Position numbers and translations under genes: made by a program. A stretch of 64,000 bases of DNA, from contig JASGCO010000001.1 in assembly GCA_030054095.1 (NCBI GenBank), forward strand, positions 272,831-336,830, read 5' to 3'. The notes below the pieces were generated by a model. The model was not told the origin of the DNA, ran no database searches, and saw nothing but the letters and a program-made list of their open reading frames with translations. Source of the DNA: Sediminibacterium sp. (GTDB lineage Bacteria > Bacteroidota > Bacteroidia > B-17B0 > Aurantibacillaceae). Below are positions 4,345 through 8,824 of this stretch, piece by piece. Position 1 is the stretch's first letter. Every line of letters begins with the position of its first letter.

Positions 4345-4391
4345 GTCACACTTTATCAGAGATAAAAAAATTCAAATAATAGTAAATCACC

Positions 4392-4425
4392 TTTCATATT
4401 CTTTTCAAAAAATCATTTATCTTTG
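4392..4425 (+). promoter_or_regulatory. Probable promoter of the rtcB2 leader
   Basis: TATCTTTG at 4418-4425 matches the Bacteroidota -7 consensus TAnnTTTG exactly. A weak -33 element (TTTC at 4392-4395) lies about 22 bases upstream. Transcription would start near 4432, giving a leader of roughly 310 bases before rtcB2. No second TAnnTTTG box was found between the terminator at 4563 and the rtcB2 start, so the operon probably depends on read-through from here. Confidence 0.55.
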
Positions 4426-4474
4426 CATTCAGAAAAATTATTTAATCAATAAAAGCAAGTAGAATTAAAAAGAT

Positions 4475-4507
4475 ATGTTAGTGTTACATTCAAATAAGAA
4501 ACCGTAA
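4475..4507 (+). CDS. Candidate 10-codon leader peptide
   Basis: An ATG at 4475 opens a 10-codon frame (MLVLHSNKKP) that stops with TAA at 4505-4507. It begins about 45 bases after the predicted transcription start and is preceded by A-rich sequence, the usual Bacteroidota initiation context. Its stop codon is part of an 8-base element, TAAGCCGG, that can pair with the 5' arm of the terminator 30 bases further on. This is the layout expected of a translation-sensing attenuator. Translation itself is unproven, and short ORFs are common by chance. Confidence 0.4.
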   Translation: MLVLHSNKKP

Positions 4508-4538
4508 GCCGGAACACTCGTATTCACAATACTTTCAG

Positions 4539-4563
4539 CCCGGTTTATAAGCCGGGTTTTTTA
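4539..4563 (+). terminator. Intrinsic terminator in the rtcB2 leader (possible attenuator)
   Basis: CCCGGTT and AGCCGGG pair (five G-C pairs, one G-U, one A-U) around a TATA loop and are followed directly by six T residues. The direct repeat TAAGCCGG at 4505-4512 copies 4548-4555 of the 3' side, so it can pair with 4540-4547 instead and block the terminator hairpin. The terminator lies after the predicted promoter and 180 bases before rtcB2. It may end a small RNA or act as a conditional stop for the operon. Confidence 0.8.
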
Positions 4564-4573
4564 TTGATTTCAA

Positions 4574-4657
4574 ATGACCGTTCGTCATAAAAAATCAAAA
4601 TGGTTTCGGGGAGTCGGAACCCATCCGGAAATAATCAGAAAAATTAAAACAAGTTAA
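4574..4657 (+). CDS. Short basic ORF, 27 codons, in the rtcB2 leader
   Basis: The frame starts with ATG 11 bases after the terminator T-run and encodes 27 residues, including VRHKKSKWFRG and PEIIRKIKTS, which is strongly basic. It ends 10 bases before the next short ORF. I do not recognise the sequence. It may be a translated upstream ORF or a chance frame. Confidence 0.25.
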   Translation: MTVRHKKSKWFRGVGTHPEIIRKIKTS

Positions 4658-4705
4658 TAGGCTTGTTATGTCCGCTTTGCTGCTATACATCTTTAACAGC
4701 AAGGC
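4648..4705 (+). promoter_or_regulatory. Tandem hairpins in the rtcB2 5' leader
   Basis: Two adjacent stems are visible: AACAAG/CTTGTT (4648-4653 with 4662-4667) and a 9-bp stem GCTTTGCTG/CAGCAAGGC with one G-U pair (4674-4682 with 4697-4705). A third, AGGCA/TGCCT (4702-4706 with 4718-4722), shares bases with the second, so they exclude one another. None is followed by a T-run. They could affect initiation at rtcB2 or transcript stability. Confidence 0.4.
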
Positions 4706-4730
4706 AGGGAATGAACATGCCTGTATTTAA
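4668..4730 (+). CDS. Short ORF, 20 codons, directly before rtcB2
   Basis: ATG at 4668 opens 20 codons (beginning MSALLYIF) ending with TAA at 4728-4730, 12 bases before the rtcB2 ATG. With the two short ORFs upstream it makes a near-continuous chain of short frames from the promoter to the operon. It is unrecognised and its translation is unproven; the spacing would allow coupling to rtcB2. Confidence 0.22.
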   Translation: MSALLLYIFNSKAGNEHACI

Positions 4731-4742
4731 ACAAAATCTCTT

Positions 4743-6146
4743 ATGGGAAAAAATAAGGTGAAGGGAAAGCACCTGCGTGGTATCGGTTTCCCTTCCGATG
4801 TAGCCAAGAGTCTGGCTACACATCTCCTCACACGGCATTTTAAGTACGTACCGCTTGAGGAAAAATTAAACGTGTTACAAAACGTTCTTTCTAATCCTGA
4901 AAGCTACCTCGAAGATAGCATCTTTCATCCTTTGGCGCATTCTATTTGTGGAACACCCAAACTGAAAACAGATTATGAGGTATTCGCACTGCAAGACAAC
5001 GGGCTTCTGAATATCTACGGTCGTGAGCATATCGCACACAACGCCATCCAGCAAATGGAAAACGCCATGAAACTGCCCATTGCCGCTAAAGGTGCTTTAA
5101 TGCCCGATGCGCATCATGGTTATGGTTTGCCCATTGGCGGTGTGCTGGCGGCTAAAAACGCGGTGATTCCTTTTGGCGTTGGACTGGATATTGGCTGCCG
5201 TATGGCACTCAGTATTTTCGACGCACCAGTAGATCTGCTAAAACACAAAGCGTACGAGTTGCAAAAAGCGCTTAAGTTTTATACCCATTTTGGTAACGAT
5301 GGCGCACTTGAAAAGCAAGCCAGTCATGCCATTACAGATGATCCACGGTTTCAGGCTACCGGTTTGCTAAAGCACCTTCATGCCAAAGCCCGTTATCAGT
5401 TGGGCTCTTCTGGCACAGGCAATCACTTTGTGGAGTTTGGTTCGGTAACACTTAACGCGGATAATATCCTTGAACTTCCGCCGGGCAACTACCTTGGACT
5501 ATTAAGCCATAGTGGCTCAAGAGGTTTTGGGGCGAGCATTGCAGATACCTACACCAGAATTGCCATGAATAAATGTCGCCTGCCAAAACAATTACAGGCT
5601 ATGGCCTGGCTGAATCTGGACTCAGAAGAAGGGCAGGAATACTGGCTATCTATGAATCTGGCGGGAGATTATGCCAAAGCCTGCCACGATGTAATCCACA
5701 AACAGCTTGCTGATACTATGGGGTTCGAATGCCTGCACAAAGTAGAAAATCATCACAACTTTGCCTGGAAAGAGCAGCACGATGGTGAGGAATATGTGGT
5801 ACACCGAAAGGGCGCTACACCAGCCGCCAAAGGTGAAACCGGCATTATTCCCGGCAGCATGTGCAGCCGTGGGTTTATTGTAAGTGGCTTAGGTAATAAC
5901 GCGGCCTTACATTCCGCGTCGCACGGTGCCGGACGGCGCTGGTCGAGGCAAGAGGCCCGTGAAAAAATCACCAAATCGCTGATGACCAAACAACTGACCG
6001 AAAAACGGATCCACCTGATAGGTGGCAGTGTAGAGGAAGCTGCTCAGGCTTATAAAGACATAGAACAGATTATGAACAGCCAGCAGGATCTGGTAAAAAT
6101 AGAAGGATCCTTTTTGCCGGCTATTGTAAGAATGAATAAACCATAA
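4743..6146 (+). CDS. rtcB2: RtcB-family RNA ligase, RtcB2 type
   Basis: RtcB enzymes use Mn2+ and GTP to join RNA ends bearing 2',3'-cyclic phosphate or 3'-phosphate to 5'-OH ends. The 467-residue protein has all core motifs in order: PDAHHGYGLPIGG, the metal-binding Asp149 and Cys152 in DIGCRM, GTGNHFVEF, HSGSRGFG, NHHNFAW, VHRKGATPAAKGE, and SHGAGRRWSR with the His394 expected to be guanylylated. Adjacency to prfH with four bases between them marks the RtcB2 subtype, whose known role is resealing 16S rRNA cut in the decoding centre, as by colicin E3. No archease gene is present. The ATG at 4743 is preceded by A-rich sequence. Confidence 0.93.
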   Translation: MGKNKVKGKHLRGIGFPSDVAKSLATHLLTRHFKYVPLEEKLNVLQNVLSNPESYLEDSIFHPLAHSICGTPKLKTDYEVFALQDNGLLNIYGREHIAHNAIQQMENAMKLPIAAKGALMPDAHHGYGLPIGGVLAAKNAVIPFGVGLDIGCRMALSIFDAPVDLLKHKAYELQKALKFYTHFGNDGALEKQASHAITDDPRFQATGLLKHLHAKARYQLGSSGTGNHFVEFGSVTLNADNILELPPGNYLGLLSHSGSRGFGASIADTYTRIAMNKCRLPKQLQAMAWLNLDSEEGQEYWLSMNLAGDYAKACHDVIHKQLADTMGFECLHKVENHHNFAWKEQHDGEEYVVHRKGATPAAKGETGIIPGSMCSRGFIVSGLGNNAALHSASHGAGRRWSRQEAREKITKSLMTKQLTEKRIHLIGGSVEEAAQAYKDIEQIMNSQQDLVKIEGSFLPAIVRMNKP

Positions 6147-6150
6147 ACAC

Positions 6151-6795
6151 ATGGACACAAAAATTATACAAATTACATCAGGAAAAGGCCCCGCCGAGTG
6201 CGCTCTGGCGGTGGCATTAGCTCTGCGCGAAATGATAAAGGAAGCTGGTGAAAAACAATTACACCACGAAACCCTTCACCGGCAAAACGGCACAGAGCCT
6301 TCTACATTATACTCGGCCACACTAAAGCTGAGTGGCCCCCGGCTCAACGATTTTATACAATCGTGGCAGGGCGCGTTATTGTGGGTCGCTCAAAGTCCGT
6401 ATCGCCGTTATCATAAACGCAAAAACTGGTTCATTGGCATACATGTTTACGACCTTACCCAATTACCTCCCTGGAAGGAAACCGATATACAGTTTCAAAC
6501 CATGCGGGCTTCGGGACCTGGCGGGCAAAACGTAAACAAAGTAGAAACCGCCGTGCGCGCCACGCATCTTAAAAGTGGCGTACAGGTGGTAGCCAGCGAA
6601 TCGCGCTCACAATTACAAAACAAAAAACTGGCATTACAAAAATTAAGGGCAGCTTACGAAAACTGGCAGATTGCCCAATTGCAGCAATCGGCACAGGCAC
6701 AGTGGTGGCAACACCATAATCTGGAACGTGGGCGGCCAAACCGTGTATATGCCGGACGAACCTTTCAACTTGAAAAAATAAATGGAAACCACTAA
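6151..6795 (+). CDS. prfH: Peptide chain release factor homologue PrfH
   Basis: The 214-residue protein is a short class I release-factor relative. It carries the peptidyl-tRNA hydrolysis motif GGQ at residues 124-126 within SGPGGQNVNKVETAVRATH, and the conserved ESRSQLQNKKLALQKL after it. It lacks the full stop-codon-recognition and N-terminal domains of RF1 and RF2. In characterised cases PrfH acts on ribosomes with a damaged decoding centre and is encoded with RtcB2, as here. Its last codons overlap the ATG of the next gene by 14 bases, which implies that the AAA/M41 protein is translated together with it. Confidence 0.93.
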   Translation: MDTKIIQITSGKGPAECALAVALALREMIKEAGEKQLHHETLHRQNGTEPSTLYSATLKLSGPRLNDFIQSWQGALLWVAQSPYRRYHKRKNWFIGIHVYDLTQLPPWKETDIQFQTMRASGPGGQNVNKVETAVRATHLKSGVQVVASESRSQLQNKKLALQKLRAAYENWQIAQLQQSAQAQWWQHHNLERGRPNRVYAGRTFQLEKINGNH

Positions 6796-8824
6796 CGTAT
6801 ATTCAGATATTATACAAAAACGTAACTACTTACAGGATGTTGCAAAAACACTGAAACAGGAATTCATTGGATTGGATGAGATTATTGAAGAAATTACTGC
6901 GCTCCTCTCCTCCTGGTACCTGTTTCCGCAGGCGCAACTAAGGCCCCTTATTATCAATATGTGGGGCATGACCGGATCCGGAAAAACCGCTCTTGTTCAA
7001 CGCTTAGTAGAGTTGCTCGACTATAAAAAACTCTACGCACAAATGGACATGGGCGAATTTGAATCGGATTCGGCTTCATGGATGAAAGCCATGTTCACCG
7101 ATGAACTTGAATTTTTCCACGAAAAGCCAAACATCATTTGCTTTGATGAATTTCAATTTGCCCGTACCTTAAATAAGGAAGGTGCCGAAATTGGCAAAGA
7201 TAAACTCAGGGTAATATGGGACATGATTGACAGCGGGAAAATAGGTTACATTTCCAGCAACGGCACCTATTACCTGAAACGCGCTGATATGGCCCTTATG
7301 AACATTTTCAGGTGTCTGGAACGCGGCGTTGAAATAAGCGGCGGCAATGTTACCAAAGGAGAAGATAGTTTCCTGGAAATTTTCAAAAATTTCTTTTTCG
7401 AAAGCGAAGAACGTAACGGTGAAGTGATTGGTTTAAATTACTTCAACTCACGTGATTTCCTCGATGGCTTATATTACCTGTATGTAGATGACAACATTAC
7501 ACGCGAAGTTATTCGTGATCAGGTAAAAAACACAGACTTAGAGGGCATCGTTGGCATTATTGAACGTGGCATACGAACCCGTACCGCTCTCAAAATACTG
7601 GATCTCTCCAAATCGGTTATTTTCATTTTAGGAAACCTGGATGAGGCATACCACATGAGTCATTCCGTAAATCCTGATATCCACGCGGATGAATTACATG
7701 CCGCTACGCTGAAAATCAATATCACCCATATAAAATCTGCGTTGGGAAAACGTTTCCGTCCTGAACAAATCGCGCGACTGGGAAATAATCATATTATTTA
7801 CCGCTCCTTTAAATCGGTGCACTTCAGGGAACTCATCTATCGCGAATTACAACGTGTGGGACGCTACATGGAAACTCAGTTTGGGTTTAGTCTTCACTTT
7901 CATGCACCGGTTTACGATATGTTGTACAAAGAAGGCGTGTTTCCTGCCCAAGGCACCCGTCCGGTTTTAACCACTATCAAAAACTATATTGAGGCATGGA
8001 CAGGAAAACTGGTGGTCACCGTTCTGGAATCCGGGTTACCCATTACCCGTGTGGAATGGAGTTGTATGAACGATTGTTACTACTTTTCGTTACTGGATGC
8101 AAACGGTGCCATACTTAAAACCTTTGAAGAAAAAGTGTATTTTAAATTAGGGGACCTTCGTAAAAAAGCAAATCCGAATGTACAAGCACATACGGCTGTT
8201 CATGAAGCTGGTCATGCCGTGTTGGCTGTTCTTACGTTACGGATTATCCCTTCGCTGGTTGTATCAAAATCTATGGAAAGTGAGTCCGACGGGTTTTGTA
8301 TGGTAAACATGCCGGAAGGAATTTTAACCCGCGATGTATTGAAAAAAGACATTATGATCAGTTTAGGCGGTTATCTGGCTGAAAAAATGATATTCGGCGA
8401 ACAAAATACCTCATCGGGAGTGGAGCAGGACATTGAACGTGCCAGTGAAATGGCGAACCTCGCTATAAAAAAATTCGCGATGGGATCAGACCCGGTATCT
8501 ATTGCTGTATATGCGCAAGGGAATAATGAGTTCTTTTATACGGAAGATAAATACAAACAGGAAGCCATGAACCTGATACGTGAGTGCGAAGACGAAGCGG
8601 AAAAGTTACTTTTGCAGCACAAGCGTCTATTACTGGCAGTAGCTGAGTTCCTCAGCCGGAACTATAAACTGGAAGAAAACAGACTGGAAGAACTGGTTAT
8701 CCGGTATTGTGACGAAGAGTGGATCAGAACAGAAGGGTTTAAACGCAAAGAGAACTACTTTTCCTTTCAGGAAGAACTCAGGAAACAATTTATTGCCAGT
8801 AACTGTCTTGAACGGGTAGCCTGA
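6782..8824 (+). CDS. Clp-like AAA+ ATPase fused to FtsH-type M41 metalloprotease, soluble
   Basis: The 680-residue protein has Walker A GMTGSGKT at residues 62-69, Walker B IICFDE ending at D122-E123, and a later FRPEQIARLGN segment like the arginine-finger region of Clp/Hsp100 ATPases. The C-terminal part is an M41 peptidase: HEAGH at 474-478 supplies two zinc ligands and catalytic Glu475, and D550 in SSGVEQDIERASEMAN fits the third ligand, with spacing close to FtsH. No membrane segment is visible, unlike FtsH, and the ATPase resembles Clp rather than FtsH. It overlaps prfH by 14 bases. An ATP-driven protease acting on damaged ribosomes, stalled products or a toxin is a reasonable inference; the substrate is unknown. 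Confidence 0.85.
   Translation: METTNVYSDIIQKRNYLQDVAKTLKQEFIGLDEIIEEITALLSSWYLFPQAQLRPLIINMWGMTGSGKTALVQRLVELLDYKKLYAQMDMGEFESDSASWMKAMFTDELEFFHEKPNIICFDEFQFARTLNKEGAEIGKDKLRVIWDMIDSGKIGYISSNGTYYLKRADMALMNIFRCLERGVEISGGNVTKGEDSFLEIFKNFFFESEERNGEVIGLNYFNSRDFLDGLYYLYVDDNITREVIRDQVKNTDLEGIVGIIERGIRTRTALKILDLSKSVIFILGNLDEAYHMSHSVNPDIHADELHAATLKINITHIKSALGKRFRPEQIARLGNNHIIYRSFKSVHFRELIYRELQRVGRYMETQFGFSLHFHAPVYDMLYKEGVFPAQGTRPVLTTIKNYIEAWTGKLVVTVLESGLPITRVEWSCMNDCYYFSLLDANGAILKTFEEKVYFKLGDLRKKANPNVQAHTAVHEAGHAVLAVLTLRIIPSLVVSKSMESESDGFCMVNMPEGILTRDVLKKDIMISLGGYLAEKMIFGEQNTSSGVEQDIERASEMANLAIKKFAMGSDPVSIAVYAQGNNEFFYTEDKYKQEAMNLIRECEDEAEKLLLQHKRLLLAVAEFLSRNYKLEENRLEELVIRYCDEEWIRTEGFKRKENYFSFQEELRKQFIASNCLERVA

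Follow-up and report, generated by a model that had tools for sequence, protein, structure and literature searches.

How bacteria sense that their ribosomes need repair is an open question. The RtcB2-PrfH pair repairs the break that colicin E3 makes in the 16S rRNA of the decoding centre (PMC9223846), and no regulation of RtcB2-PrfH is described in the literature we searched. By analogy, the nearest known system is the PA5471.1 leader of the armZ (PA5471)-prfH (PA5470) operon of Pseudomonas aeruginosa, where complete translation of PA5471.1 leads to a terminator, and where its deletion, or a stop at codon 3, raises ArmZ (PMC13041342, PMC12057347). This leader-peptide control of an anti-repressor has been termed unique to MexXY (PMC12057347). 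A second relevant class is that of the trp-type four-segment attenuators, in which a ribosome on a short open reading frame (ORF) likewise determines which of the exclusive hairpins forms.

The leader described here occupies positions 4418-4565 of the window (the whole 64 kb stretch of DNA analysed, part of a 4.6 Mb Bacteroidota genome), with divergent genes on one side and the rtcB2 operon on the other, and consists of a promoter box, a 10-codon ORF, an antiterminator helix (P1) and an intrinsic terminator. It is likely to be a ribosome-mediated transcription attenuator of the rtcB2-prfH repair operon, with the reservation that promoter use, translation of the ORF, the direction of the effect in vivo and the natural signal are all inferred, and that no Bacteroidota RNA or reporter data are available. 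The features of the locus are listed below in window coordinates.

4418..4425, + strand: Bacteroidota -7 promoter box TATCTTTG, the sole + strand TANNTTTG in 4380-4742
4475..4507, + strand: leader ORF, 10 codons (MLVLHSNKKP) plus TAA; ATG at 4475, TAA at 4505-4507
4493..4498, + strand: AATAAG, a decayed CATATC word with 3/6 letters retained
4505..4512, + strand: P1 5' strand (antiterminator), overlapping the ORF stop codon; pairs with 4540-4547
4520..4532, + strand: P2 hairpin within P1 (GTATT-CAC-AATAC); several relatives also have a hairpin inside P1
4540..4547, + strand: P1 3' strand, doubling as the terminator 5' arm; pairs with 4505-4512
4537..4565, + strand: intrinsic terminator, stem 4537-4558, six T's at 4557-4562
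4564..4742, + strand: strongly structured region from the terminator to the rtcB2 start (z -4.22), role unknown
4743..6146, + strand: rtcB2, RNA ligase (Pfam RtcB, 2.4e-76)
6151..6795, + strand: prfH, release-factor homologue (NCBIfam TIGR03072, 230.8 bits vs cut-off 166.65)
6782..8824, + strand: AAA + M41-peptidase protein (Pfam), third gene of the operon

The downstream genes meet the criterion for an RtcB2-PrfH repair operon, namely a TIGR03072 match above cut-off adjoining an RtcB ligase. The ligase also matches NCBIfam release_rtcB and PRK09588, both below their curated cut-offs. The AAA/M41 gene overlaps the end of prfH, and such a gene also follows rtcB2 in L010, L011 and L012. As in P. 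aeruginosa, an RtcB-family ligase gene followed by prfH is preceded by a short leader ORF (13 codons in PA5471.1). The two systems differ in phylum and in the Bacteroidota promoter of our leader, and ArmZ is additionally an anti-repressor of MexZ; their leader sequences were not compared.

Within the leader, the 8-mer TAAGCCGG occurs at 4505-4512 and again at 4548-4555, and CCGGTTTA at 4540-4547 complements the first copy with one G-U pair. P1 and the terminator have strand 4540-4547 in common and are mutually exclusive. The initial annotation had reported the box, the ORF, the 8-mer repeat, the P1 pairing with its single G-U, the terminator and the six T's, all of which held, exact to the base. 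The pattern TAAGCCGG-N25-50-CCGGTTTA occurs once in the 64 kb and in 0/100 shuffles, and a terminator scan gave one site at the leader vs 0.4 expected.

Comparison shows that this leader design, built from different sequences, precedes rtcB2-prfH genes across the Bacteroidota. When 60 related genomes were searched at the DNA level, three strong matches emerged: one was the window's own copy, and the other two, in genomes of the same genus, also lie before rtcB2, with nucleotide similarity that stops at the terminator. We also surveyed 80 rtcB2-like loci from GTDB genomes, 78 of which have upstream DNA. In 26/78 loci an ATG, 14-15 nt and the word CATATC follow one another within 800 nt 5' of the gene, vs 0.94 expected (a figure computed from the remainder of the same loci), and a TANNTTTG box lies 20-110 nt before the leader ATG in 25 of these 26 exact-motif relatives. 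The six background matches that also have the box all proved to be the same leader about 1 kb upstream, before an extra gene. A prfH gene is present in 27/31 loci with the exact leader vs 18/47 others (p 2e-5); among prfH loci that lack the exact word, most have a different leader version, and four loci (L013, L014, L032, L057) retain leader and rtcB2 with no detectable prfH. The same picture emerged from a second sample, for which 396 Bacteroidia genomes supplied 29 additional prfH loci; a few of its species overlap with the first. Automatic detection of the complete layout under strict criteria, which proved too narrow, succeeded in 12/47 prfH-positive vs 3/33 prfH-negative loci (p 0.08, not significant alone). 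We rejected the possibility of a dispersed element, as the leader is single-copy in the window genome and the only strong matches in the 60 relatives were that copy and the two before rtcB2.

The leaders fall into three versions. Type A, found in the window, Cytophagales, Saprospiraceae and others, has a 10-18-codon ORF and a terminator that uses the P1 3' strand. Its ATG is invariant across the alignment and the P1 5' strand begins about 28-32 nt after the A of the ATG in 18/19 leaders; stop codons lie anywhere from +31 to +52 while the start of P1 stays fixed, that is, the distance to P1 tracks the start codon independently of ORF length. Type B, found in Sphingobacteriaceae and Chitinophaga, has an ORF like MTEQIHISPLSLIA followed by a stop, and a P1-like helix from about +25, but no clear terminator was seen in these leaders. 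A type B sequence model matched in 11/121 Sphingobacteriaceae genomes, once each, and all matches adjoin rtcB2 or a gene for a protein of about 240 aa that precedes rtcB2. Structured RNA persists without a visible terminator in type B, as it does in L018, L024 and L031. L029 has no good P1. In type C, the flavobacterial version, the ORF has 25-28 codons with indels in multiples of three, and the sequence directly 5' of the ATG pairs with the ORF end, which also pairs with the 5' arm of the terminator. These four segments give the 1:2, 2:3 and 3:4 pairings of trp-type attenuators, whereas type A has segments 2, 3 and 4 only. Strong Shine-Dalgarno sites stand before many leader ATGs. No repeated codon type is common to the leader ORFs across relatives and, unlike trp-type leaders, those of Bacteroidota lack a run of codons for a single amino acid, the apparent cue being failure to elongate at all.

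The MAFFT alignment A3 misregisters P1, shifting it by one base in some rows, and we therefore relied on a swap test and on hand-registered arms. Because hand registration biases the P1 double-change and type C pairing tests toward structure, the swap test is our primary pairing evidence. It is alignment-free, setting each upstream strand against its own and every other leader's terminator arm. For 27 leaders the own pairings had a mean of -12.8 kcal/mol vs -8.9 +/- 0.49 when permuted (0/20,000 permutations), and the type B helix gave 7/20,000. In 14 distinct hand-picked leaders, double changes occur in 6/7 P1 pairs and 92% of cells are paired (0/500 shuffles). The exclusivity of antiterminator and terminator is thus kept by compensatory change, and the relatives carry a real, conserved attenuator architecture as regards pairing, fixed geometry and the tie to rtcB2. 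The attenuator reading of the initial annotation would have failed had relatives kept neither pairing nor ORF, which is not the case: same-genus genomes retain the ORF, P1 and the terminator before rtcB2, and in remote Bacteroidota the design is kept with different, compensated sequences. That reading is supported, in the absence of any Bacteroidota data on transcript start, ORF translation or induction by ribosome damage.

Folded at full length and at equilibrium, the terminator is more stable than P1, so that P1 matters only in nascent RNA and read-through needs kinetic trapping or pausing. For masked folding, we computed the partition function of nascent RNA ending in the terminator loop, with the ribosome footprint masked. 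Antiterminator occupancy was 0.82 (type A) and 0.98 (type C) with a ribosome at the AUG, and 0.12 and 0.10, respectively, with a ribosome at the stop codon. The position of the ribosome on the leader thus changes which hairpin forms, a result obtained in silico only; since a ribosome at the start spares P1 and one at the stop removes it, early arrest means read-through. The anatomy of type C alone gives the same direction. Without any ribosome P1 still forms in the window leader (0.67), and any loss of leader translation, not damage alone, would therefore induce; in L087, L062 and L012, placing a ribosome at the start codon turns a P1 that is weak in the ribosome-free RNA into a strong one. 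The direction of the effect, left unsettled in the initial annotation, is now proposed from geometry, ribosome-masked folding, the four-segment flavobacterial version and the P. aeruginosa analogue, in which full translation terminates and stalling or an early stop results in read-through (PMC13041342, PMC3516279, PMC12057347).

In the mechanism we propose, transcription would start just after 4425. A healthy ribosome would reach the ORF stop and cover the P1 5' strand, the terminator would form and transcription would end at about 4562. A ribosome able to initiate but unable to pass about codon 5 would not cover the P1 5' strand, which begins at about +29; P1 would then form in the nascent RNA, no terminator would appear and rtcB2-prfH would be transcribed.

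We infer that decoding-centre damage is the natural signal. In vitro, E3-cleaved ribosomes show near-normal initiation and a stepwise loss of aminoacyl-tRNA binding, the yield of pentapeptide is about 15% and peptides longer than about 8 residues are essentially absent, i.e. the ribosomes stop within about 5-8 codons (PMC2615495). In a type A leader, a ribosome must read about five codons to mask P1 and ten to reach the stop. Because cleaved ribosomes initiate but stop so early, the leader could be a processivity ruler that reports damage, and it would report the very damage that its operon mends. The match between leader length and the processivity limit is suggestive, not proof, and drugs that block early elongation should, by inference, act like damage. 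If this is true, the operon needs no protein sensor and detects ribosome damage directly, in that a damaged ribosome fails to get across ten codons; the PA5471.1 drug-resistance leader is one case of a widespread repair switch; and the leader offers a simple RNA reporter for early-elongation failure. A bolder reading holds that the ruler is set to the limit of cleaved ribosomes (about 5-8 codons), that damage-sensing attenuation is old in the rtcB2-prfH operons of several phyla, that the MexXY drug response is a later use of it, and that CATATC, at its fixed distance from the start codon, adds a further RNA signal of the stalled initiating ribosome; taken as one joint claim, we lean slightly against it.

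The most serious rival is a general sensor of translation inhibition, induced by any early-elongation block (antibiotics, scarce charged tRNA), with damage as only one input. It differs from the damage reading only in the breadth of the signal, and we could as readily accept it as reject it. In its favour are the lack of a common repeated codon type in the leader ORFs, the masked folding, in which P1 is freed whenever codons 5-10 go untranslated, and the finding that many drugs acting on the ribosome, as well as loss of suhB, cca, fmt or folD function, elicit a response from PA5471.1 (PMC12057347, PMC13041342). Against it stand the fit of leader length to the processivity limit of E3-cleaved ribosomes and the fact that every type B model match in the 121 Sphingobacteriaceae genomes precedes a repair operon.

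Two other explanations appear very unlikely. One is that 4418-4565 constitutes an independent small RNA gene, complete with promoter and terminator, rtcB2 being transcribed from elsewhere, as might be suggested by nucleotide conservation that ends at the terminator in the closest relatives. However, the element lies directly before rtcB2 in each close relative, its P1/terminator exclusivity is conserved by compensation, and no further TANNTTTG was found on the + strand from 4565 to rtcB2. Rfam gave no match for the leader at gathering score, and none up to E 1 for three relatives, an absence that argues neither for nor against such a gene. The other is autoregulation, with RtcB2, PrfH or another protein binding the leader and controlling termination, the ORF being incidental. 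Structured RNA that remains where no terminator is visible (type B, L018, L024, L031) and the conservation of CATATC as a nucleotide word across two frames would suit such binding, but the distance of P1 is fixed to the start codon and not to another motif, many ATGs have strong Shine-Dalgarno sites, type C indels come in multiples of three, and the P. aeruginosa analogue requires leader translation.

We found no mention of a Bacteroidota leader before rtcB2-prfH in the literature searched, which was largely without subscription journals, and a prior mention cannot be excluded; transcriptome papers on Bacteroides and Flavobacterium refer to leader ORFs but, in the passages searched, not to the rtcB2-prfH operon. 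Neither the start-to-P1 ruler nor the CATATC word of the Bacteroidota has been described for P. aeruginosa. The region before E. coli rtcB2-prfH resembles our leaders in having a strong Shine-Dalgarno site and a 15-codon ORF (MTNPLSMTLCRPFQD and a stop) with competing pairings before rtcB2, but has no clear terminator and no CATATC word (one leader, read by eye). The competing pairings in this region (L161:2110-2358) are CTGCAAGG/CTTTGCAG and GCAGAC/GTCTGC. It is identical in four variants, among which the downstream DNA differs.

In many type A and B relatives CATATC stands 17-18 nt downstream of the A of the ATG, a fixed distance (26/78 exact, e.g. L017:4798-4803). What is conserved is the nucleotide word, which occurs in two reading frames; its function is unexplained. 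We rejected a peptide motif, given the two frames and one occurrence behind a stop codon; pairing with the Shine-Dalgarno region, for which no conserved complementary partner was seen by eye; and a MazF-type ACA site, since the preceding A is not constant (L017, L036 and L027 have CCATATC).

In several Sphingobacteriia the protein of about 240 aa encoded between leader and rtcB2 is basic (RLKSARQKKRL...VPLExPYQKGWKRxF). Its gene is found in L025, L032, L036, L037, L045 and L059 (about 750 nt before rtcB2) and also in L151, L153, L155 and L157. The one member scanned had no Pfam or NCBIfam match, and the protein may possibly be a third repair component. A hairpin of the form GGGUAUAUCC-loop-GGAYGAA is conserved in type B leaders (e.g. 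L056:4876-4900), where it precedes either rtcB2 or the 240-aa gene. Finally, L069 carries two attenuator-like leaders in tandem, at 4360-4480 and 4724-4890, before one rtcB2.
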